In this document: piece after piece, positions 1-37,792 of the stretch
Numbering within the stretch: the stretch's first letter is position 1
Layout: each line of letters starts with the position of its first letter
Assembly: GCF_022539505.1 (NCBI RefSeq)
Contig: NC_061509.1
Location: forward strand, 35,530,334-35,594,333
Origin: Lolium rigidum
Taxonomy: Eukaryota; Streptophyta; Magnoliopsida; Poales; Poaceae
Length of the DNA: 64,000 bases
Reading direction: 5' to 3'
Notes under the pieces: generated by a model
Seen by the model: only the letters and a program-made list of their open reading frames with translations
Database searches by the model: none
What the model was told of the DNA's origin: nothing
Translations under genes and position numbers: made by a program

Positions 1-2907
1 AAATCTTGGGCTAATCCGAGCAGTAAAAGATACAGTTATGCGCCATCATTGCTGATAAATTAAAAAGTTTGAGCTATGACTTGAAAAAGTGGCATGTCAG
101 CTTAGCTAAATTAAATGGTTTGATTCAGAACTGTAACAATGTTATCATGATTTTTGATACACTAGAAGAATATAGACCTTTGGTTTGTGCTGAATTTAAT
201 TTTAGAAAGGTTGTCAAGTTGCATCTTCAAGATCTGTTGAAATGTGAAAGTGATTATTGGAAAAAAAGGTGCACAATCCGTTGGATCGAGCAAGGTGAAG
301 AGAACAGTAAATTTTTCCATGCCATGGCGACCGAGAGATATAGAAGGAATAATATTGCAATGCTCAGAGATGAAACAGGGGCTGAGTTCTCAGATCATCA
401 GACTATGGCTGGAATGCTATGGACGAATTATAAAGAAAGAATGGGCCAGTCAAAAGGTATATCTATGCAGTTTGATTTGGGTCATTTGATACAGCGTGTA
501 GATGGGCTTGAAGAGCTTACTGCTCCTTTTACAAAGGAAGAGATGAATGGGGTAATCAAAAACATGCCGACGGATCGAGCCCCTGAGCCGGATGGTTTTA
601 ATGGCCGGTTTTTGAAGAAGTGTTGGCCCATCATTCAAACAGAGTTTTACCGCCTTGCTGAAGAGTTCAATGATGGGAATCTCAAATTGCAGAACATAAA
701 TGGTTCTTACATCACTTTAGTTCCCAAGGTGGCATGTCCTGTTGGGGTCGATGACTTCAGACCAATTTCGCTTACAAATGTATGCTTAAAGTTTCTTACC
801 AAGTTGGCTGCAAATAGACTACATGGGAGAATCTTGGAATGTGTTAGTAAAAATCAGTATGGTTTTTTGAGGAAACGATCTATCCAAGACCGTTTGGCAT
901 GGTCTTTTGAATACATTTACCTATGTCATGCTTCCAAAAAGCCAATAGTAATTCTGAAGCTAGACTTTGCAAAAGCTTTCGATACCATTGAGCATGAAGT
1001 AATCATCCAAGTTATGCAGCATCTTGGTTTCAATGAGAAATGGATTGTTTGGATTAGAGAGATCCTATCTTCTGGAACTTCGGTAATCTTACTGAATGGT
1101 GTCCTTGGGAAGCAGTTTGCATGCAAGCGGGGGTTCGGCAAGGCGATCCTCTCTCGCCTCTATTATTTATCTTTGGCTCGAATTTGTTACAGGTGGTGGT
1201 AAATGATTTGTTGCATCAAGGTATTATTAGTAGACCCATTGATACACATGATGATGACTTTCCAATTATACAATATGCTGATGACACAGTTATGGTTTTG
1301 CCTGCTGATATGGTGCAACTGAAAGCTCTGAAGGATGTTCTCCACAAATATTCGTTATCCACTGGCCTTAAAATTAACTATGGTAAATCACAGCTGATCC
1401 CTATCAATGTGAGCAGTGAAATGACTTCACAGTTAGCTGCAGAGTTTGGTTGCCAAGTGGGGTCGATGTCGTTCACTTATCTTGGTCTCCCGCTGGGAAC
1501 TACCAAGCCTTTGATCAGGAATATGATGCCTTTATATAGTTTGTCGGCTGGAACGTAAATTGTCTGCAAGTTTGAGATTTCTCAACCAGGGCGCTAGGCT
1601 GCAGTTAATCAACTCCGCTCTTGCCTCCATGCCTCAATCAATTTGACTGTGTTCTTAGACAATGTTTGTGGGGTGATCATACTGATACTCCTAAACAATC
1701 TCTTGCTTCGTGGGAGATGGTTACTCAGCCAAAAAAGTCTGGTGGTTTGGGTATTTTCAACTTTCAAAAACATAATGTTGCTCTATTGATCAAATTCTTG
1801 GATAAATTCTATAACCGGGCTGATATACCTTGGGTACATTTGATTTGGTCTTCTCACTATGAACATAAAATACCGCATGCTCAGAATCTATGCGGATCAT
1901 TCTGGTGGCGTGATGTGATGAAGTTGGTGGAAAATTTCAAAGAAGTGGCGGTGGTAAGTCCAGGAAGAGGAGAGGAGACACTGTTTTATTTTGGGAGGAT
2001 AAATGGCAGATCAATGGCTCCTCTACACCTCTAAAGGACAGATTTCCTAGGCTATATTCATATGTGCTTGAGGTTAACGTGTCTGGTGCCAAAGTTTTCT
2101 CTCTGGAGGACCTTATGTCCATATTCCATTTGCCATTGTCACGGCAAGCTCATGAGGAAATGCTTCAGTTGCAGCAAATAATGATGGATGTGCCTTTGTC
2201 TGACTGTGATGATGTTTGGAAATTTTGTTGGGGAGACTCGTATACCTCGGCTAAATTCTATTCTCACATACATAGTCATATCTCTGTTCCTTTGGTTTTC
2301 AAATGGATTTGGAAGTCCAGCTGTACCATGAAGACAAAAAAATTCGCTTGGTTATTATTGAGAGATCGACTAAACACATGTGATCTGCTGCAGCGAAGAC
2401 AGTGGAAGGTCACCAATGATAAGTATTGTGTTATGTGCCCTCTTAGAGCGTATGAGGATCGGGTGCATCTTTTCTTTGAGTGCAATTTCAGCACACGTAT
2501 ATGGAATTATCTTCAGATTGATTGGACCGGAGGAAATGGTGATATACAGGAAATTGTGGCTGCACCACGTAAGAGCTTCCAACACCCTTTCTTTATGGAG
2601 GTGATGATCATGGCTAGTTGGAACATATGGATTATCGGGAATGGATTTATTTTTAGGAATGAGAAACCCACTTTTACAAAGTGGAAGTGTAATTTCATAC
2701 ATCATGCGCATCTCCTCAAGCATAGGATTAAATATAAACATCTAGATAGATATGAGGATTGGCTATCCTCTCTGCCATAAGTGTACATAGGTATAGTTGG
2801 TAGGTTGTTTTCTCTCCTTTCTTTGTACATAACTTTTTGTGTTTTATTATGATATAAATAAATTGTTGTGGGGCTTTTTGCCTCACAGTCCGATCTTTCA
2901 AAAAATA
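1..2907 (+). mobile_element. LINE (L1-type) retrotransposon, 3' part, degenerate
   Basis: This is the 3' portion of a plant L1-type non-LTR retrotransposon; the 5' part lies outside the window. It encodes the reverse transcriptase and the C-terminal zinc-binding region of ORF2, followed by about 120 bp of 3' UTR and a short A-rich tail near 2890-2907. There are no LTRs. The right boundary is approximate and is placed where coding similarity to a second LINE begins. Confidence 0.85.
69..2780 (+). pseudogene. LINE ORF2 pseudogene: reverse transcriptase plus zf-RVT
   Basis: ORF2 copies element RNA into DNA at a nicked target. The first open segment (69-1202) has the linker motif RWIEQGEENSKFFH and RT blocks DFRPISLTNV and KLDFAKAFDTIEHE. 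RT continues in another frame (1121-1558) with GVRQGDPLSPLLF and the catalytic YADDT. A third segment (1621-2034) and a fourth (2064-2780) carry the downstream region and the zinc-binding zf-RVT domain, with the cysteine/histidine cluster CVMCPLRAYEDRVHLFFEC. The switch near 1130-1136 fits loss of one G from a G-run just before the GVRQGDP motif. At least three frame breaks make it inactive. The true start is upstream of the window. Confidence 0.9.
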
Positions 2908-3997
2908 AATATGTTTCCATCATTCCAACTGAAGACGAAGATATTCTCTGCTAGAAGCCAACTCCAAATGGAAAATGCGATTTGAAATTCACTTATAAAC
3001 TATGTTTGCAAGATCTTTTTGATGCAGGATCTTCAAAACCAACTCCACCAGACAACACATCAATGATAGTTCTCAACAAGGTCTGGGAAAATAAGCAGCT
3101 AATGCTGAGAGTCAAAGCTTTTGCTTGGAGGATAATAAGAAGAGCAATTCCTATGGGATAAAAAGCTACAAGGTATTCTAAACACATTTCCAATATTTGT
3201 TGCAGATGTGGAATACAAGAAGATGATATACACTTATTTTTCACCTGCACTTTTGCTAGAGCTGCTTGGTTCCATTCTACCTAGCACCTAAGAACTGACA
3301 TTGTTGCTGCAAATTCAAACAACATAAACACCGTTATATCAAACTTGCTAGCAATCAACCATCCAACTACTACTATCCAACACATTTTCACTTTCCTTTG
3401 GTGCTTATGGAATATGAGAAATGATAAACTTTTCTCCAACAAAGAAGGTTTTCCTAACCATGTTTTCATAAGAATTCATGCCTTGCTAAATAGCTTACAA
3501 ACAAATGCATCTACTCCTCAGCCAAACAAACCTATTGCTATTCCTGAGGAGCTAACCTATGCAGGGCCAAAAATATTTGTTGATGCATCATGAAAAGAAT
3601 AGACCAATAGACGAACAACAAAGGCATGCATTGGGATTTACATAACCTGGCAAGATAACTCACAAGTGATTGATGTGTTTATTGCAGCCAAGACTACAAA
3701 CATTGCATCTCCCATCTAGGACGAGACAACAACTCTTATCAGTACATCGCACATTGCTTCCTTTATTCTTTTGCAGGACCCCATCTTCTTCACTGGTAAT
3801 CGCAGTCTTGCCAAGGCAACAACAACGGCAAGAGCTAAGGATCCAAATGTCCTATGGGAAATCAGGAGATAAGCCATCCAATTCCAGGAGCTAGCTCAAC
3901 CTCTTAGAGCAAAGGTCATCCATGTCACTAGGCAACTCAGCAGAGTTTCCCACACTTATGCACAACAGGCAATGCACGCCACAAGAACATTGCCCAT
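2908..3997 (+). pseudogene. Second LINE ORF2 tail: zf-RVT and RNase H remnant, interrupted
   Basis: Broken coding similarity shows a zf-RVT cluster ([16 protein letters not shown] near 3200-3250) and then the start of a plant-LINE RNase H domain (KIFVDAS near 3571-3591), with several stops and frame changes. The sequence stops at 3997, where element B is inserted, and resumes at 32315 in a compatible frame. The 5-bp CCCAT at 3993-3997 is repeated at 32310-32314 as the insertion's target duplication. It is an unrelated copy to the LINE at 1-2907, since the zinc-binding segments differ. Confidence 0.75.
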
Positions 3998-4109
3998 TGA
4001 TACGTCTCCAACGTATCTATAATTTATGATGTTCCATGCTTGTTTTATGATAATACCTACATGTTTTGCTCGCACTTTATAATGTTTTTATGCGTTTTAC
4101 GGAACTAAC

Positions 4110-5698
4110 TGATAGCGTGTATACACACGTCCGTTGGGAACCCCAAGAGGAAGGTGTGATGTGTATAGAAGCAAGTTTTCCCTCAGTAAGAAACCAAGGT
4201 TATCGAACCAGTAGGAGCCAAGAAGCACGTTGAAGGTTGATGGCGGCGGAGTGTAGTGCGGCGCAACACCAGGGATTCCGGCGCCAACGTGGAACTTGCA
4301 CAACACAACCAAATTACTTTGCCCCAACGTAACAATGAGGTTGTCAATCTCACTGGCTTGCTGTAACAAAGGATTAGATGTATAGTGTGGAAGATGATTG
4401 TTTGTAGAAAACAGTAAAGCGAGTATTGCAGTAGATTGTATTCGATGTAAAAGAATGGACCGGGGTCCATAGTTCACTAGAGGTGTCTCTCCCATAAGAA
4501 ATAGCATATTGGGTAAACAAATTACAGTTGGGCAATTGACAAATAAAGAGAGCATAACAATGCACATACATGTTATGATGAGTAGTGTAAGATTTAATTG
4601 GGCATTACGACAAAGTACATAGACCGCTATCCCAGCATGCATCTATGCCTAAAAAGTCCACCTTCAGGTTATCATCCGAACCCCCTCCAGTATTAAGTTG
4701 CAAACAACAGACAATTGCATTAAGTATGGTGCGTAATGTAATCAACAAATACATCCTTAGATATAGAATTGATGTTTTATCCCTAGTGGCAACAGCGCAC
4801 ATCCACAACCTTAGAGGTTGTTGTCACTCCCAGTATTCAATGGAGGCATGAACCCACTATCGAGCATAAATACTCCCTCTTGGAGTTACAAGCAATGACT
4901 TGGCCGAGCCTCTACTAGCAACGGAGAGCATGCAAGATCATAAACAACACATAGATAGATTGATAATCAACATAGCATAGTATTCATTATTCATCGGATC
5001 CCAACAAACGCACATGTAGCTTTACAGATAGATGATCTTGATCATGTTAGGCAGCTCACAAGATCTAACAATGATAGCACAATAAGGAGAAGACGACCAT
5101 CTAGCTACTGCTATGGACCCATAGTCCAGGGGTGAACTACTCACACATCAATCCGGAGGCGACCATGGCGGTGTAGAGTCCTCCGGGAGATGATTCCCCT
5201 CTCCGGCAGGGTGCCGGAGGCGATCTCCTGAATCCCCCGAGATGGGATTGGCGGAGGCCGCGTCTTTGGAAGGTTTTCCGTATCGTGGCTCTCGGTACTG
5301 GGGCTATTTTCGACGAAGGCTTAAGTAGGCGGAAGGGTAGGTCAGGAGGCGTTACGAGGGGCCCAGACGCCAGGGCCGCGCGGCCAAGGTCCAGGCCGCG
5401 CCGCCCTGTTGTCTGGCCGCCTCGTGGCCCCACTTTGTCTCTCCCTCGGTCTTTTGGAAGCTTCGTGGAAAAATAGGACCCTGGGCGTTGATTTCGTCCA
5501 ATTCCGAGAATATTTCCTTACTAGGATTTCTGAAACCAAAAACAGCAGAAAACGAAGCAATCGGCTCTTCGGCATCTCGTTAATAGGTTAGTGCCGGAAA
5601 ATGCATAATAATGACATATAATGTGTATAAAACATGTGAGTATCATCATAAAACTAGCATGGAACATAAGAAATTATAGATACGTTTGAGACGTATCA
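4110..5698 (-). repeat. 3' LTR of element A
   Basis: 1589 bp, minus strand. It pairs with 9371-11363. The GC-rich stretch at 5137-5480 has open frames on both strands, but these recur as LTR sequence and are not genes. Confidence 0.92.
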
Positions 5699-5713
5699 AG
5701 CATCCCCAAGCTT
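5699..5713 (-). other. Polypurine tract of element A
   Basis: On the minus strand AAGCTTGGGGATGC immediately precedes the 3' LTR. This is the plus-strand DNA priming site. The same 14-mer precedes the 3' LTR of elements B and C. Confidence 0.8.
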
Positions 5714-8293
5714 AGTTCCTACTCGTCCCGAGTAGGTAAACGATAACAAAGATAATTTCTTAAGTGACATGCTATCATAATCTTGATCAATACTATTGTA
5801 AGCACATGTAATGAATGCAGCGATTCGAAGTAATGGTAAATGTAATGAGTAAACAACTGAATCATATAGCAAAGACTTTTCATGAATAGTACTTTCAAGA
5901 CAAGCATCAATAAGTCTTGCATAAGAGTTAACTCATAAAGCAATAGTTTCAAAAGTAAAGGCATTGAAGCAACACAAAGGAAGATTAAGTTTCAGCGGTT
6001 GCTTTCAACTTGTAACATGTATATCTCATGGATATTGTCAACATAAAGTAATATAATAAGTGCAATATGCAAGTATGTAGGAATCAATGCACAGTTAACA
6101 CAAGTGTTTGCTTTTAAGATAGAAGGAAATGGGTAAACTGACTCAACAATAAAAGTAAAAGAATGGCCCTTCGCAGAGGGAAGCATGGATTGCTATATTT
6201 GTGCTAGAGCTTTTATTTTGAAAACAAGAAACAATTTTGTCAACGGTAGTAATAAAGCATATGTATCATGTAAATTATATCCTACAAGTTGCAAGCCTCA
6301 TGCATAGTATACCAATAGTGCCCGCACCTTGTCTTAATTAGCTCGGATTACCTGGATTATCATCGCAATACATATGTTTTAACCAAGTGTCACAATGGGG
6401 TACCTCTATGCCGCCTGTACAAAGGTATAAGGAGAAAGTTCGCATTGGATTTCTCGCTTTTGATTATTCTCAACTTAGACATCCATACCGGGACAACATA
6501 GACAACAGATAATGGACTCCTCTTTAATGCATAAGCATTTAGCAACAAATAATGTTCTCATAAGAGATTGAGGTTTATTGTCCAAACTGAAACTTCCACC
6601 ATGAATCATGGCTTTAGTTAGCGGCCCAATGTTCTTCTCTAACAATATGCATACTCAAACCATTCAACTCATGGTAAATCGCCCTTACTTCAGACAAGAC
6701 AAACATGCATAGAAACTCACATGATATTCAACAAAGAAATAGTTGATGGCGTCCCTAGGAACATGGTTATCGCACAACAAGCAACTTATAAGAGATAAGA
6801 TGCATAAGTACATATTCAATACCACAATAGTTTTTAGGCTATTTGTCCCATGAGCTATATATTGCAAAGATAAAGAATAGCAATTTTGAAGGTAGCACTC
6901 AAGCAATTTACTTTGGAATGGCGGAGAAATACCATGTAGTAGGTAGGTATGGTGGACACAAGTGGCATAGTGTTTGGCTCAAGGATTTTGGATGCATGAG
7001 AAGTATTCCCTCTCGATACAAGGTTTAGGCTAGCAAGGTTGTTTAAAGTAAACACAAGTATGAACCGGTACAACAAAACTCACATAAAAGACATATTGTA
7101 AGCATTATAAGACTCTATACCGTCTTCCTTGTTGTTCGACCTTTACTAGAAAATATCTAGACCTTAGAGAGACCAATTATGCAAACCAAATTTTAGCATG
7201 CTCTATGTATTTCTTCATTAATAGGTGCAAAGTATATGATGCAAGAGCTCAAACATGAGCACAACAATTGCCAAGTATCACATTATTCAAGATGTTATGC
7301 CAATTACCACATGTAGCATTTCCCGTTTCCAACCATATAACAATTTAACGAAGCAGTTCAACCTTCGCCATGAATATTATGCGTAAACCCTAAGGACATA
7401 TGTGTCCATATGCAACAGCGGAGCGTGTCTCTCTCCCACACAATGAATGCTAGGATCCAACTTTTTTAAAACAAAACAAAAACAAAAACAAACAGACGCT
7501 CCAAGTAAAGCACATAAGATGTGATGGAATAAAAATATAGTTTGACTAGAGGAACCTGATAGTGTTGTCGATGAAGAAGGGGATGCCTTGGGCATCCCCA
7601 AGCTTAGACGCTTGAGTCTTCTTGAAATATGCAGGGATGAACCACCGGGGCATCCCCAAGCTTAGAGCTTTCACTCTCCTTGATCATATTGTATCATCCT
7701 CCTCTCTTGATCCTTGAAAACTTCCTCCACACCAAACTCAAAACAAACTCATTAGAGGGTTAGTGCGTAACCAAAAATTTCACATGTTCAGAGGTGACAC
7801 AATCATTCTTAACACTTCTGGACATTGCACAAAGCTACTGGAGGTTAATGGAATAAAGAAATCCATCTAACATAGCAAAACAGGCAATGCGAAATAAAAG
7901 GCAGAATCTGTCAAAACAGAACAGTCCGTAAAGACGTATTTTTCTGGGGCACCAGACTTGCTCAAATGAGAAAACTCAAAACTAATGAAAGTTGCGTACA
8001 TATCTGAGGATCACGCACGTAAATTGGCATAATTTTCTGAGTTACCTACAGAGAATTCAACCCAAATTCGTGACAGCAAGAAATCTGTTTCGCACGATAA
8101 TCCAAATCTAGTATCATCCTTCGATTAGAGACTTTACTTGGCACAACAATGCAATAAAACTAAGATAAGGAGAGGTTGCTACAGTAGTAACAACTTCCAA
8201 GACTCAAATATAAAACAAAAGTACTGTAGTAAAGTGATGGGTTGTCTCCCATAAGCGCTTTTCTTTATAGCCATTGAGATGGGCTCAGCAGTT
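5714..8293 (-). other. Element A 3' non-coding interior
   Basis: About 2.6 kb between the orphan ORF and the polypurine tract. I see no ORF with family similarity. It is collinear with 14381-24249 of B (minus the Tat insertion) and 27458-30029 of C, in inverse orientation. It contains the conserved hairpin at 7579-7599 and extra AAGCTTGGGGATGC motifs. Confidence 0.75.
7579..7599 (-). other. Conserved hairpin with polypurine-like motif (copy A)
   Basis: Arms GGGGATGCC and GGCATCCCC enclose a 3-nt loop. A second AAGCTTGGGGATGC-type motif lies nearby at 7649-7664. Equivalent hairpins are at 15065-15085 (B) and 28150-28170 (C). The function is unknown; it is an inferred RNA structure or internal polypurine tract. 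Confidence 0.6.
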
Positions 8294-8983
8294 TTAATGA
8301 TGCACTCGCAAGAAATAGTATTTGAAGCAAAAGAGAGCATCAACAGGCAAATTCAAAACAAATTTAAGCCTAACCCACTTCCTATGCATAGGAATCTTGT
8401 ACATAAATAAGTTCATGAAGAGCAAAGTGACAAGCATAGGAAGATATAACAAGTGTAGCTTCAAAAATTTCAGCATATAGAGAGGTGTTTTAGTAACATG
8501 AAAATTTCTACAACCATATTTTCCTCTCTCATAATAATATCCAGTAGCATCATGAGCAAACTCAACAATATAACTATCAAGTAAAACATTCTTATCATGA
8601 GTCTCATGCATAAAATTATTACTACTCCCAACATAAGCATAGTCATTCTTATTAATTGTAGTGGGAGCAAATTCAACAAAGTAGCTATCATTATTATTCT
8701 CATCACCATAATCATCAAATATAGGAGGCATAGTATCATCAAAGAAAATTTTCTCCTCCATGTTTGGGGGACTAAAAATATCATGCTCATCAAAACCAGC
8801 TTCCCCAAGCTTAGAATTTTCCATAGCATTAGCAACAATAGTGTTCAAAGCGTTCATATTAATAACATTGCCATTAGCATGCATATAAACTTCCATAGGT
8901 TTTTTAATTTTATCTTCAAACTCCTCATGTCCTAACTCAAGATAAATACTATAAAGATCTCTAATATTTTTGTTGTTTTCCAT
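8294..8983 (-). CDS. Orphan ORF of element A (229 aa), putative membrane-associated protein
   Basis: I do not recognise a characterised family. The frame is open from ATG at 8983 to the stop at 8294. Residues 1-60 are polar and mixed-charge; 60-120 are rich in D, E and N. A repeated DSYxVEFA motif occurs twice (near 98 and 137), followed by ERGKYGCRNFHVTKTPLYML. A hydrophobic segment of about 25 residues (near 170-195) could span a membrane; it is followed by the basic KIPMHRKWVRLK and a second short hydrophobic stretch ending FLRVHH. A 241-aa homologue is in C (26732-27457) and a broken one in B. It sits where Athila-type elements may carry a post-pol ORF, so it may be an env-like remnant or a new accessory protein. 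Intactness suggests recent insertion or selection. Confidence 0.65.
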   Translation of the reverse strand: MENNKNIRDLYSIYLELGHEEFEDKIKKPMEVYMHANGNVINMNALNTIVANAMENSKLGEAGFDEHDIFSPPNMEEKIFFDDTMPPIFDDYGDENNNDSYFVEFAPTTINKNDYAYVGSSNNFMHETHDKNVLLDSYIVEFAHDATGYYYERGKYGCRNFHVTKTPLYMLKFLKLHLLYLPMLVTLLFMNLFMYKIPMHRKWVRLKFVLNLPVDALFCFKYYFLRVHH

Positions 8984-18618: not shown

Positions 18619-20070
18619 ATGGTAGGACCTGGGCACCACTCTGGCAAAGATGGAGACGAGGGCAGCTGCTCTCGTAGCAAGGACACAGAGGAGGCCGCTC
18701 CACGCGATCGGCTCCATCATGATGGCAAGCGCTACGTCACAGAGGGAGAAGTGAAGAACATAAGATATCAGCGACCCCTCTCTGATCACCTCCTCAACAA
18801 GTATGTAAGTCAGTATGACCAACGCCGACGGTCCAGCTATGATGATGAAAGAGATCGTTTGGCTAGAGAAGCCAGAAGACATCGTCGGCATGATCGCGAT
18901 GAGGAGGAGCACGAGCGCCGTGCCAAAGGAGAATCAAGGGAGCAAGATGACAACGACGAGCATCGGGACTGCCCCTTCTTCGTACACCGCTCGGGATTCA
19001 GGAATGAGCCGATTGCCCACAATCGGCAATTGCCCGAATGCAACCAGAAGAAGAAGGAGGCAGCCAACGTATCTGTGTTCAGGCGCTTAGGGCCTCTCCC
19101 ACCACAAAGCAAACGCGCTGAGTCCCCTCGGTGGGCGGATCTCGAGGATTCAGAAGACGAGGGACAAGAAGAAGAAGAAAACAGGTACCACCATCCAAGG
19201 TGGTGCCCTGATGGACTCAGCCGTTCCCAAAAGCGCAGGGTTCAGCGATTGCGCGGTCTGGAGGAAGCCGAAAGGTTATACTTGCATACGCTAAGGAAGG
19301 CACGACCTGATCTGGCTGCGAAAGTTCAGCGAACCCTGGACGAAGAGGGTCGTCCACGAAAAATGGAGTGGCGCCCCAAGCAAAGGAAAGCCGATGATGA
19401 AACATCGGCTGGTACAAACATGGTGTTCATCCTCCCTTCGGAGTTCAGTGCTCCAGGATTAGACGAGGCACCTGTGGCACAACTTGACTGCGGCCCACGG
19501 CCGGTTATCTTTGAGAAGCCACGAGAAAGAAGCTACAGACATCTGAAGGCCCTGTACTTGCGAGGTTACATCGATGGGAGGCCTGTAAATAAGATGCTGG
19601 TGGACACCGGAGCGGCAGTCAACATCATGCCGTACTCTATGCTACGTCGGTTGGGACGCTCTAGCTCAGATCTAATCAAGACCAACGTGACATTGAGCGA
19701 TTTCAATGGCCAAGCATCTGACGCACAAGGTGTTCTGAACGTGGATCTGACCGTAGGAAGGAAAACTATCCCTACAACGTTCTTCATCGTCGATAGCACG
19801 AGCACTTATGCGGTTCTGCTAGGAAGGGATTGGATCCACGCCAACTGCTGCATTCCCTCCACAATGCACCAATGCATAATACAGTGGGATGGAGATGAGG
19901 TAGAGGTCGTCCAGGCAGATGACTCAGCCGAAATTTCAACGGCTGGCATGAACGCATGGGAAGCAGCAGGCCAAGAACCCCTCTCAGGTATCAATTTGGA
20001 CGACTGCGAGCGCATCGACGTGACGAAGGGAAGGGTTAAGCTGGTTTTATCCACTGGTCTGACCATGTAG
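18619..20070 (+). CDS. Aspartic protease-containing polyprotein part (483 aa)
   Basis: This frame opens 8 bp after the gag stop. Residues 1-230 are very polar and rich in R, E and D. A retropepsin-like domain follows: MLVDTGAAVNIMP (near 326-338) is the active-site loop and YAVLLGRDWIHANC (near 394-407) the ILGRD-type motif. Family members cleave the Gag-Pol polyprotein. The frame ends at 20070 without RT, and no RT motif (YVDD or similar) appears downstream. It may be expressed by frameshift or reinitiation from gag; the sequence does not show which. Confidence 0.8.
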   Translation: MVGPGHHSGKDGDEGSCSRSKDTEEAAPRDRLHHDGKRYVTEGEVKNIRYQRPLSDHLLNKYVSQYDQRRRSSYDDERDRLAREARRHRRHDRDEEEHERRAKGESREQDDNDEHRDCPFFVHRSGFRNEPIAHNRQLPECNQKKKEAANVSVFRRLGPLPPQSKRAESPRWADLEDSEDEGQEEEENRYHHPRWCPDGLSRSQKRRVQRLRGLEEAERLYLHTLRKARPDLAAKVQRTLDEEGRPRKMEWRPKQRKADDETSAGTNMVFILPSEFSAPGLDEAPVAQLDCGPRPVIFEKPRERSYRHLKALYLRGYIDGRPVNKMLVDTGAAVNIMPYSMLRRLGRSSSDLIKTNVTLSDFNGQASDAQGVLNVDLTVGRKTIPTTFFIVDSTSTYAVLLGRDWIHANCCIPSTMHQCIIQWDGDEVEVVQADDSAEISTAGMNAWEAAGQEPLSGINLDDCERIDVTKGRVKLVLSTGLTM

Positions 20071-35887: not shown

Positions 35888-35892
35888 CTATT

Positions 35893-36079
35893 TGTTAGAG
35901 ATATATTAGGTAGTATTAGATGTCACGGGATTTGTATAGGATTTGTCATTCATCTCCTGCCTTATCTCTAGGAGAGCTTCTTAGCCTCCAAGTCTTGTAC
36001 CCTATATATACTCGCCCATGAGGCGCAATACAACATCCATCATATTCCGCCAATCTCTCTCCCTCTCTATCATTCTACA
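35893..36079 (+). repeat. Left LTR of the inverted-LTR insertion
   Basis: 187 bp, TGTTAGAG to ATTCTACA, with TATA box CCTATATATAC at 36001-36011. Confidence 0.92.
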
Positions 36080-36092
36080 TGGTATCAGAGCC
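36080..36092 (+). other. Left primer-binding site (initiator tRNA-Met)
   Basis: TGGTATCAGAGCC directly abuts the left LTR. Confidence 0.9.
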
Positions 36093-36290
36093 AAGAGGTC
36101 TTGAGTTCAAGACCCGGTTGGCGCAATATAAAATAAAAATATTGCAGCCCACTTTCGGTCCACGTTTAGGCCTGAGGGAGCCACACGTGAGGGGGAGTGT
36201 TGAAGTATAAATGCATTGCCTAATCTCTTCCATCAGATCGGTCTTTTGGTTGCATTGGTTAGAGCATGCAGTTCTACATTACAAAGTGCG
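36093..36290 (+). other. Left arm interior, TRIM-like
   Basis: About 200 bp with a T-arm-like hairpin (GGTCTTGAGTTCAAGACC, 36098-36115) and a polypurine run GTGAGGGGGAG followed by TGTTGAAG at 36200-36207. The latter resembles the start of a different LTR, so this arm may itself be chimeric. Confidence 0.45.
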
Positions 36291-37478
36291 CGCCATGTCG
36301 GAGTAGACTAGTAGAGGAGGTCTCGACGACGGGTGTCGGAGAAGAGGAGCAGGTGGTGTAGTCGGGGAAGAGGCGAGTCTCGACGACGGGTGTCGGAGTA
36401 GAGTAGCAGGTGACGTAGTCGGGGAAGAGCGAGGACGGCGGCGGCGAAGCTGTAGTGTACGAAGACGTAGAAGGCGGCTAACCCAGCGGTGACCATGGGT
36501 GGTCAAGGCTGGACGCCTAGATGGGCGTTGCGGTGGTCGGCGGCGCGGCGGCGACCCGAAGAGGTTGGCGAGCCCAGCGGCGACACTGGGATGAGGCGCG
36601 GCGGCGGTACACGAAGTAGGCGAGGAAGACCCAGCGGCGTGAAGAAGACCATGCGCGGATGGAGGCGACCCGCGCCGAAGGGGCGGCGCTGTGGTGGCCT
36701 CGGACATCGACGCGCGGGGGACGGCGAAGGCGACCGCGTGTGGCGACGCTACGGCCTGAGGGGCCGGCGTAGCTGCAGGGCGCGAGTCGGTGCAGCGGCG
36801 GGACGCCACCAGCGATGTACACGCCTCAGAAGGCGCGTCGTTGGCTAGCAGCGTGGACCAAAGGCGGCGGCGCTGCGACCGAAGGGGCGACGCAGCGGCA
36901 ACCCGATGCTCAATCGGTGGTAGGCGCGTGCTCGGGGACGTGCTTGGCGGAGACGTGCGCGCGGTCGGTTGATCAGACCGACGGCGGCGTTGTACGCGCC
37001 ATGGCGTGGACGACGTGCCGCAGATTGGAGTCGTTGGCGACGTTGTCGGTGATGTTCCGGGCGATGACGGTGAAGACGGACCAGCGATGGAGACCGCGCG
37101 GGCGAGACAGCTGCTGCGTCGCACGTAGGCGCCCCGTGTGTGACGCATGCGGCCGTGCCGCGCAGTTGATGAAGATGGCTGGTGCAGTCGATGCCGTTGT
37201 CGGAGTAGAGGCGCGCGGTGACGGCGGCGGTGGGTGACTCAATCCGATCTATGATCGGTTAACCAAAAAAAAGAAAACGACGGTCGAGCGACCGGCGGAG
37301 CAAAAAGAAAACCAATCTACGGATTGGAAAAAAAAGACTCGAGGGCAGCGGATCAACGGATCGGCCGACGAACCCTCATACGGGTTGCGCGGCCCCCCAG
37401 AGTAGATCATGGAGATCGACCTCCCCGGGGGCGGCGCGGCGCGGAAGCTTGGGCGGCGGCTAGGTCAAGGAGCGTGCC
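36291..37478 (-). other. Right arm interior, G+C-rich, with low-complexity open frame
   Basis: Leader-like sequence belonging to the minus-strand LTR. A minus-strand frame is open from 37148 to 36279 (289 codons, rich in S, P, R and T) but has no motif and several competing frames. A 57-bp direct repeat starts at 36321 and 36378 (TCTCGACGACGGGTGTCGG). I do not call a gene. Confidence 0.5.
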
Positions 37479-37490
37479 GCTCTGATACCA
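37479..37490 (-). other. Right primer-binding site (initiator tRNA-Met)
   Basis: The minus strand reads TGGTATCAGAGC, abutting the right LTR. Confidence 0.9.
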
Positions 37491-37677
37491 TGTAGAATGG
37501 TAGAGAGGGAGAGAGATTGGCGGAATATGATGGATGTTGTATTGCGCCTCATGGGCGAGTATATATAGGGTACAAGACTTGGAGGCTAAGAAGCTCTCCT
37601 AGAGATAAGGCAGGAGATGAATGACAAATCCTATACAAATCCCGTGACATCTAATACTACCTAATATATCTCTAACA
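37491..37677 (-). repeat. Right LTR of the inverted-LTR insertion
   Basis: 187 bp, minus strand; one base differs from the left LTR near its 3' end. Confidence 0.92.
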
Positions 37678-37792
37678 CTATTGATATCATCAAATCCAAG
37701 AAACCTGGCAAGACCATGGATCATGTCGCAAATAGAAAGATTATATTCTGGTTTTGAACTCACGTATAGTGTAACGAATATCACATAAATCC

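Follow-up and report, generated by a model that had tools for sequence, protein, structure and literature searches.

Structure of the insertion

The window, that is, the whole stretch of 64,000 nucleotides analysed here, lies on C2 of the 2.44-Gb genome of Lolium rigidum. An open frame of 483 aa is located at 18619-20070. The repeat search returned a single inverted pair in the window, 35893-36091 versus 37479-37677, whose arms of 199 nt each are separated by a spacer of 1387 nt and agree at 198 of 199 positions. The only mismatch is a T versus C at LTR position 178. Each arm consists of a 187-bp LTR (LTR187) and 12 nt of the adjoining primer site (TGGTATCAGAGC), which presumably matches the 3' end of the plant initiator tRNA-Met; past the arms, the interiors diverge (CA vs GG). 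The features of the insertion are as follows:

35888..35892, unstranded: left target site duplication (TSD) CTATT; single copy at the paralogous empty site
35893..36079, + strand: left LTR187; U3 end outward at 35893, ends ATTCTACA at 36079
36080..36093, + strand: left primer binding site (PBS) TGGTATCAGAGCCA; SMART version, same site in other SMART copies
36080..36278, + strand: SMART/TRIM unit S (PBS, interior, PPT, LTR81); 100% identical to S of loci L022 and L023
36187..36197, + strand: SMART polypurine tract (PPT) GTGAGGGGGAG
36198..36278, + strand: SMART 3' LTR (LTR81), 81 bp, TGTTGAAG...GTTCTACA; complete to its terminus
36276..36279, unstranded: junction between the SMART LTR end and antisense interior B; ACA(T) common to both parents
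36276..37490, - strand: interior B, the 5' part of an LTR187 element, antisense to the window
37477..37490, - strand: right PBS; reads TGGTATCAGAGCGG on the minus strand
37491..37677, - strand: right LTR187; U3 end outward at 37677
37678..37682, unstranded: right TSD CTATT

The two outer LTRs have TG...CA ends and are inverted relative to each other, unlike the direct LTRs of a standard LTR retrotransposon. Comparison with normal elements shows that the U3 ends face outward on both sides (TGTTAG.../...CTAACA). A PBS adjoins both outer LTRs, and the sole PPT found is that of SMART, located 5' of LTR81, so that the standard PBS/PPT arrangement is absent. The first-pass annotation had described two inverted 187-bp LTRs with one difference, each next to a primer site and bracketed by CTATT, with U3 at both outer ends; the repeat search, the arm comparison and the normal elements all agree with this description. 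The junction that it placed near 36290 exists as well, but lies slightly upstream, at 36276-36279.

A single integration

A genome search with the left flank gave one other match, on C4, with 92% identity (both candidates scored). Aligned with the joined flanks of the window, C4:219083600-219084300 is 92.9% identical over 662 columns, contains one CTATT and is ungapped at the insertion point. Because the flanks of this empty site are uninterrupted and CTATT is present once, all 1785 bp must have entered in a single integration. The event thus added 1785 bp and duplicated 5 bp of the target, which is joined to a U3 end on either side. The empty site also excludes the inversion of one LTR of a normal element together with flanking host DNA at a later time, which had been named beforehand as one finding that would overturn the reading. 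A chance origin of the structure is excluded by the length of the arms, the empty site, and the existence of relatives that carry this LTR in direct orientation and have 5-bp TSDs. Taken together, the inverted arms, the interiors, the junction, and the empty site support the earlier proposal of one integration via two U3 termini of head-to-head DNA derived from two elements.

The LTR187 element

In a genome search with the LTR, 40 places out of 1197 first-look candidates were scored, two of which were the window's own. The 12 LTR pairs that were fetched (L009-L020) belong to elements of 1801-2385 bp, eight of them between 2.09 and 2.15 kb. All 12 pairs are direct, and the 5-bp TSDs are exact in ten cases and contain one mismatch in the other two. 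Normal elements with this 187-bp LTR, which the first-pass annotation had advised to look for, are therefore present in the genome. Their interior B aligns with the minus strand of the window from 37490 down to 36276. Typical copies continue for approximately 560 bp beyond this point to a PPT and the 3' LTR, a part that the window copy lacks. At 13 further LTR187 places, the LTRs are direct wherever two of them are recognisable; several of these copies are partial.

No reverse transcriptase (RT) was detected in the scanned frames of the approximately 2.1-kb element: neither eight of the 16 stop-to-stop frames of the L014 copy (longest 292 aa) nor the 289-aa frame of the window gave a Pfam match. 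The LTR187 family is therefore probably mobilised in trans. An autonomous partner was sought in L063, where 10 of 19 frames were scanned without a Pfam match. At this locus (1338-8334), approximately 7 kb of intervening DNA splits an LTR187 element in two. Neither a tRNA gene nor a known RNA family was found at the insertion site.

The two LTRs of the window differ from each other at one site, and the nearest of 27 other LTR rows are three and four differences away. Both share C161 and A182, a pair that occurs in two of the 27 rows, both from L015; A182 by itself is present in L026, too. It is likely, if not proven, from this comparison that both LTRs come from one source within the second (LTR187) family. 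The insertion is recent; provided that the one difference between its LTRs was acquired afterwards, it would be approximately 0.2 Myr old at a rate of 1.3e-8 per site per year.

The SMART unit

The left interior, 36080-36278, is a complete unit of PBS, interior, PPT, and LTR, of which many near-identical copies are found in the genome. Exactly two same-strand LTR81 matches, at a distance of approximately 200 bp, are present at 13 of the loci L021-L050. Ordinary copies of 280-281 bp with 81-bp LTRs account for 12 of the 13; they are flanked by 5-bp TSDs that are exact in 11 cases and carry one mismatch in L042. The thirteenth (L048) is a chimera in which PBS and B follow. The 12 ordinary copies have the features of SMART/TRIM elements, namely a length of <300 bp, an LTR of about 85 bp, a PBS, a PPT, and a 5-bp TSD, and by size and anatomy the left interior fits a SMART-type TRIM. 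The published SMART element (FRetro129) of grasses is described as 292 bp long with 85-bp LTRs, PBS, and PPT (Gao et al., 2012; PMC3281118), close to the 280 bp and 81-bp LTRs found here, and a maize copy covers 280 bp judging from its coordinates (PMC4717578). The window differs in that a foreign LTR replaces one SMART LTR and the other end of the unit is fused to antisense DNA. The earlier suggestion that two related elements had been joined is thus correct as to the joining of two elements, but not as to their relatedness, one being a SMART-type TRIM and the other an LTR187 element of approximately 2.1 kb.

The junction between the interiors

The SMART LTR terminates with ...GTTCTACA at 36278, and its last base is retained at the joint. 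Normal copies of B read GGGAACATTACAAAG in the orientation of the window. The microhomology at the joint is ACA, extending to ACAT with the first base of the PBS behind it. A genome query spanning the joint gave a full-length match at the window only (40 of 450 candidates scored); the remaining listed matches begin at query position 47 (=36276) or beyond. Further copies of the junction had been proposed as a sign of a mobile palindromic form, and among these scored candidates a second copy was not found.

Other inverted or unusual arrangements

The pattern of an LTR187 end plus PBS occurs at 432 places with ≤2 mismatches, 168 of which were read by eye. These 168 places contained one facing pair within 5 kb besides that of the window (L070 66-4994, C1:35.071 Mb). 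Here, a left LTR-PBS-B piece is cut by a CACTA-like start and faces a complete antisense element; the three LTRs share 100% identity across 173 bp, and a matching pair of 5-bp flanks was not found at the locus. L070 was dropped as a clean inverted case for lack of such flanks and because of the CACTA-like start inside it.

A second pattern, the LTR81 end followed by TGTAGAA, which is blind to inverted LTRs with other ends, was found at four places with ≤1 mismatch. Two of them are exact and lie approximately 9 kb apart on C4. They form a second inverted complex, C4:88.468-88.478 Mb, made up of L069 207-2203 (which contains L066) and L025 1242-1870. In L069, LTR-PBS-S-LTR81 stands end to end with the inverted 3' LTR of a related element (joint TTCTACA / TGTAGAA), and the left end is an outward U3 end. 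The LTRs of L069 are 100% identical to each other over 185 bp and 83% identical to LTR187. Past the joint follow the PPT, the tail, and part of B of the inverted element in antisense orientation, until B breaks into other DNA. L025 holds more of B as well as a second S-LTR81, likewise end to end with an inverted LTR, whose element belongs to another family (copia-type RT, RVT_2, E 1.3e-50). Judging from the coordinates, B would be continuous from L069 to L025. The window is thus not the only place with an inverted joint at the SMART LTR terminus. For the blunt joint of L069, however, ligation is at least as good an explanation as template switching.

Two further arrangements were noted. At L050 (1403-1687), an inverted SMART LTR is followed by TTACA and a SMART unit without its own 5' LTR. 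On C5, three same-strand LTR-PBS sites (151706686, 151708566, and 151710434) are spaced by approximately 1.87-1.88 kb and are perhaps a tandem array of LTR-sharing elements.

SMART units between the LTR and PBS of other elements

The survey of SMART units outside the window covered 38 near-complete units at 37 places (L049 is the second unit of L055). The sample consisted of the best matches and of units met in other fetches and was not random; partial units and overlapping loci were omitted. At 10 of the 37 places, a foreign LTR lies directly upstream of the unit, and a PBS plus another interior directly downstream (L018, L022, L023, L026, L031, L043, L047, the first unit of L055, L064, and L067). 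A foreign LTR upstream without a clean PBS downstream was found at L032 and L065. The 11 upstream LTRs of these loci, that of L055 excepted, sort into four groups: L018/L022/L026/L043, which are LTR187-like, L023/L031/L065/L067, L032/L064, and L047. No similarity between the groups was detected at E 1e-3, and a nine-sequence run agrees. Still other units adjoin the outer end of an element, behind its 3' LTR (L044, L049), or form tandems (L029). The array in L029 (1304-2175, C4:221.938 Mb) consists of four SMART interiors and five LTRs.

SMART is already part of LTR187-like elements at L018, L022, L026, L043, and L055, and the S of L022 does not differ from that of the window. The placement of SMART exactly between a foreign LTR and a PBS is the product expected from PBS-to-PBS transfer. 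A plus strand would move to SMART cDNA at the PBS, be extended along it up to the tRNA-derived PBS at its end, and then undergo a second PBS transfer. These loci are unlike ordinary SMART insertions, since the latter leave the two LTRs of SMART and a TSD, whereas the upstream LTR is foreign in all ten. Given the four unrelated LTR types, the survey suggests that very small elements have repeatedly moved along with larger ones in this way.

Origin of the insertion

The leading explanation, about evenly balanced in our estimate, is that the insertion stems from a single integration of an aberrant linear cDNA, made by reverse transcription in a particle containing LTR187 and SMART RNAs. LTR187 plus-strand strong-stop DNA, ending in the tRNA-copied primer site, would have moved to SMART minus-strand cDNA, pairing with the shared 12-nt PBS of the latter instead of that of LTR187 itself. 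The SMART interior, PPT, and LTR81 would then have been copied to the very end of the template. The resulting ...TTCTACA end, without the normal PBS transfer, would have switched via the ACA(T) microhomology onto an LTR187 plus strand, landing approximately 1.2 kb inside the interior, and copying back through PBS and LTR would have led to the U3 end. Integrase would finally have joined the two U3 ends to the target, giving rise to the 5-bp duplication. Such a product should be a dead end, because a transcript from either LTR would meet an antisense LTR.

What can be read from the DNA itself is the set of parts, the empty site and single TSD, a crossover inside the PBS, and a junction that falls on the SMART LTR terminus; co-packaging, the order of the steps, and polymerase switching as the joining route are what we infer. 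The crossover between LTR187 and SMART falls within the 12 shared PBS bases, and the junction coincides with the LTR81 terminus, which is the end of the minus-strand template, with 3-4 nt of microhomology. A crossover in a shared primer site combined with a second joint at a template end with microhomology favours an origin in reverse transcription without proving it. Inter-template transfer in a plant Copia element has been reported for Tnt1 (PMC2923131). The first crossover may predate the inversion, because the chimera L022 has the same S as the window; the left arm may therefore derive from an LTR187-SMART chimera, with the first step having taken place in an earlier cycle. An L022-like chimera with a younger LTR is a possible parent. 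L018 was rejected as the direct parent, as its LTRs are 7 and 8 positions off the left LTR of the window. Also rejected was a SMART unit nested antisense in an LTR187 element with strong-stop mispriming on its PBS, since none of the fetched copies holds SMART in antisense and the carriers, L018 and L055 among them, have it in sense orientation.

A 3-base overlap is expected by chance in 1 of 64 cases, so that end-joining or one-ended integration could yield the same junction. A serious but less probable alternative is that cellular end-joining linked an LTR187-SMART chimeric cDNA, through its U5 end, to an LTR187 cDNA that was broken or unfinished, and that the product was then integrated by its two U3 ends. 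The short overlap would suit microhomology end-joining, and L069 and L025 contain exact end-to-end joints between LTR81 and an inverted LTR. However, this course requires that the LTR187 cDNA was broken within its interior and leaves the PBS-precise LTR187-SMART crossover unexplained, although that crossover may be older. Integrase requires an LTR terminus ending in CA, and the joined end is such an exact terminus, as would be expected if the CA end of LTR81 had attacked the interior of an LTR187 cDNA in trans, with one end only, and the branch had been resolved before two-U3 integration. For retroviruses and retrotransposons, autointegration has been described as suicidal (PMC2644782). We consider it improbable here, as integrase does not need the ACA overlap, the one-ended products must be resolved, and the end-to-end joint of L069 is not expected from integrase.

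The two remaining explanations carry very little weight. That an assembly error or a rearrangement after insertion flipped one LTR, or fused nested or adjacent elements, is highly unlikely in view of the agreement of TSD and flanks with the paralogous empty site. Moreover, an inversion between the inverted arms flips the interior and cannot produce inverted LTRs, and the messier case is illustrated by L070 with its facing LTRs lacking matching 5-bp flanks. A mobile palindromic form replicating as such might find an echo in L069 on C4, with its outward left U3 end and inverted LTRs, but the junction of L069 is different, its LTR is 83% identical to LTR187, and the full-length junction match was obtained at the window alone among the 40 of 450 candidates scored, which makes this form the least probable of all.

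Returning to the reverse-transcription reading, we propose tentatively, and at somewhat less than even confidence, that SMART units spread in part as hitchhikers at the cDNA level: during reverse transcription they would be captured by other families through the common tRNA-primer site, at the exact boundary between LTR and PBS, and would be carried along when those families integrate. The inverted-LTR element would be a failed form of this process, with a switch to the opposite strand taking the place of the second PBS transfer. If this is true, the inward-facing LTR promoters at both ends of such failures could yield dsRNA against a whole LTR family.

Significance and comparison with known systems

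Integration normally uses one U3 and one U5 end. The window therefore offers a base-by-base case of a plant retrotransposon integrase joining two U3 ends, which constrains end recognition, and preserves in legible form a strand transfer or joining event between unrelated families with a common primer site. Inverted products of this type are candidate natural sources of hairpins for family silencing.

Garfinkel reportedly described in 2006 Ty1 autointegration circles formed by the self-directed joining of LTR ends; those are circles, whereas the window contains a chromosomal insertion with a TSD. DIRS-like elements are not known to have a TSD, in contrast to the CTATT duplication here. The 5-bp TSD, the TG...CA LTRs, and the direct-LTR relatives indicate integrase rather than a DIRS-type route. 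DIRS-1 resembles the insertion in having inverted LTRs around an interior, but is described as encoding a tyrosine recombinase and as probably integrating circles (PMC5633606).

Template-switching complexes are described for Triticeae, rice, and maize, which share with the window one TSD, near-identical outer LTRs, and two parents, and which were explained by template switching inside a particle containing two RNAs (Sabot & Schulman, 2007; PMC1950507). As presented there, they contain three direct LTRs and have normal U3 and U5 outer ends, while the LTRs in the window are inverted. A direct internal LTR and two complete cores, by which those complexes are defined, are not seen in the window, where the internal LTR is LTR81 and core B is approximately 560 bp short.

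A screening of titles and the beginnings of abstracts, with subscription papers mostly outside its scope, gave no plant insertion of the inverted-LTR form, and we do not claim its absence from print. As far as their accessible text goes, PMC2151762 (an IRAP primer figure), PMC6189423 (inverted chromosome regions), PMC11044480, and PMC10959353 have no bearing on such an insertion.

Tandemly arrayed TRIMs, to whose class L029 belongs, are direct in the published arrays except for case C of maize (PMC4717578). This inverted pair, TA-TRIM 'C' (AC220956:117725-118283, TSD CTTCA; Gao et al., 2016; PMC4717578), is the closest precedent. It belongs to the SMART family, has inverted units within one 5-bp TSD, and is reported to have been validated by PCR and sequencing. 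It consists of two TRIMs only, and its description includes neither a second family nor an analysis of the junction or mechanism (PMC4717578). The element in the window is a rare, well-resolved accident of a known kind and not a new type of mobile element; what is new in it is that two families are combined, that integration used U3 at both ends, and that the junction can be read base by base.
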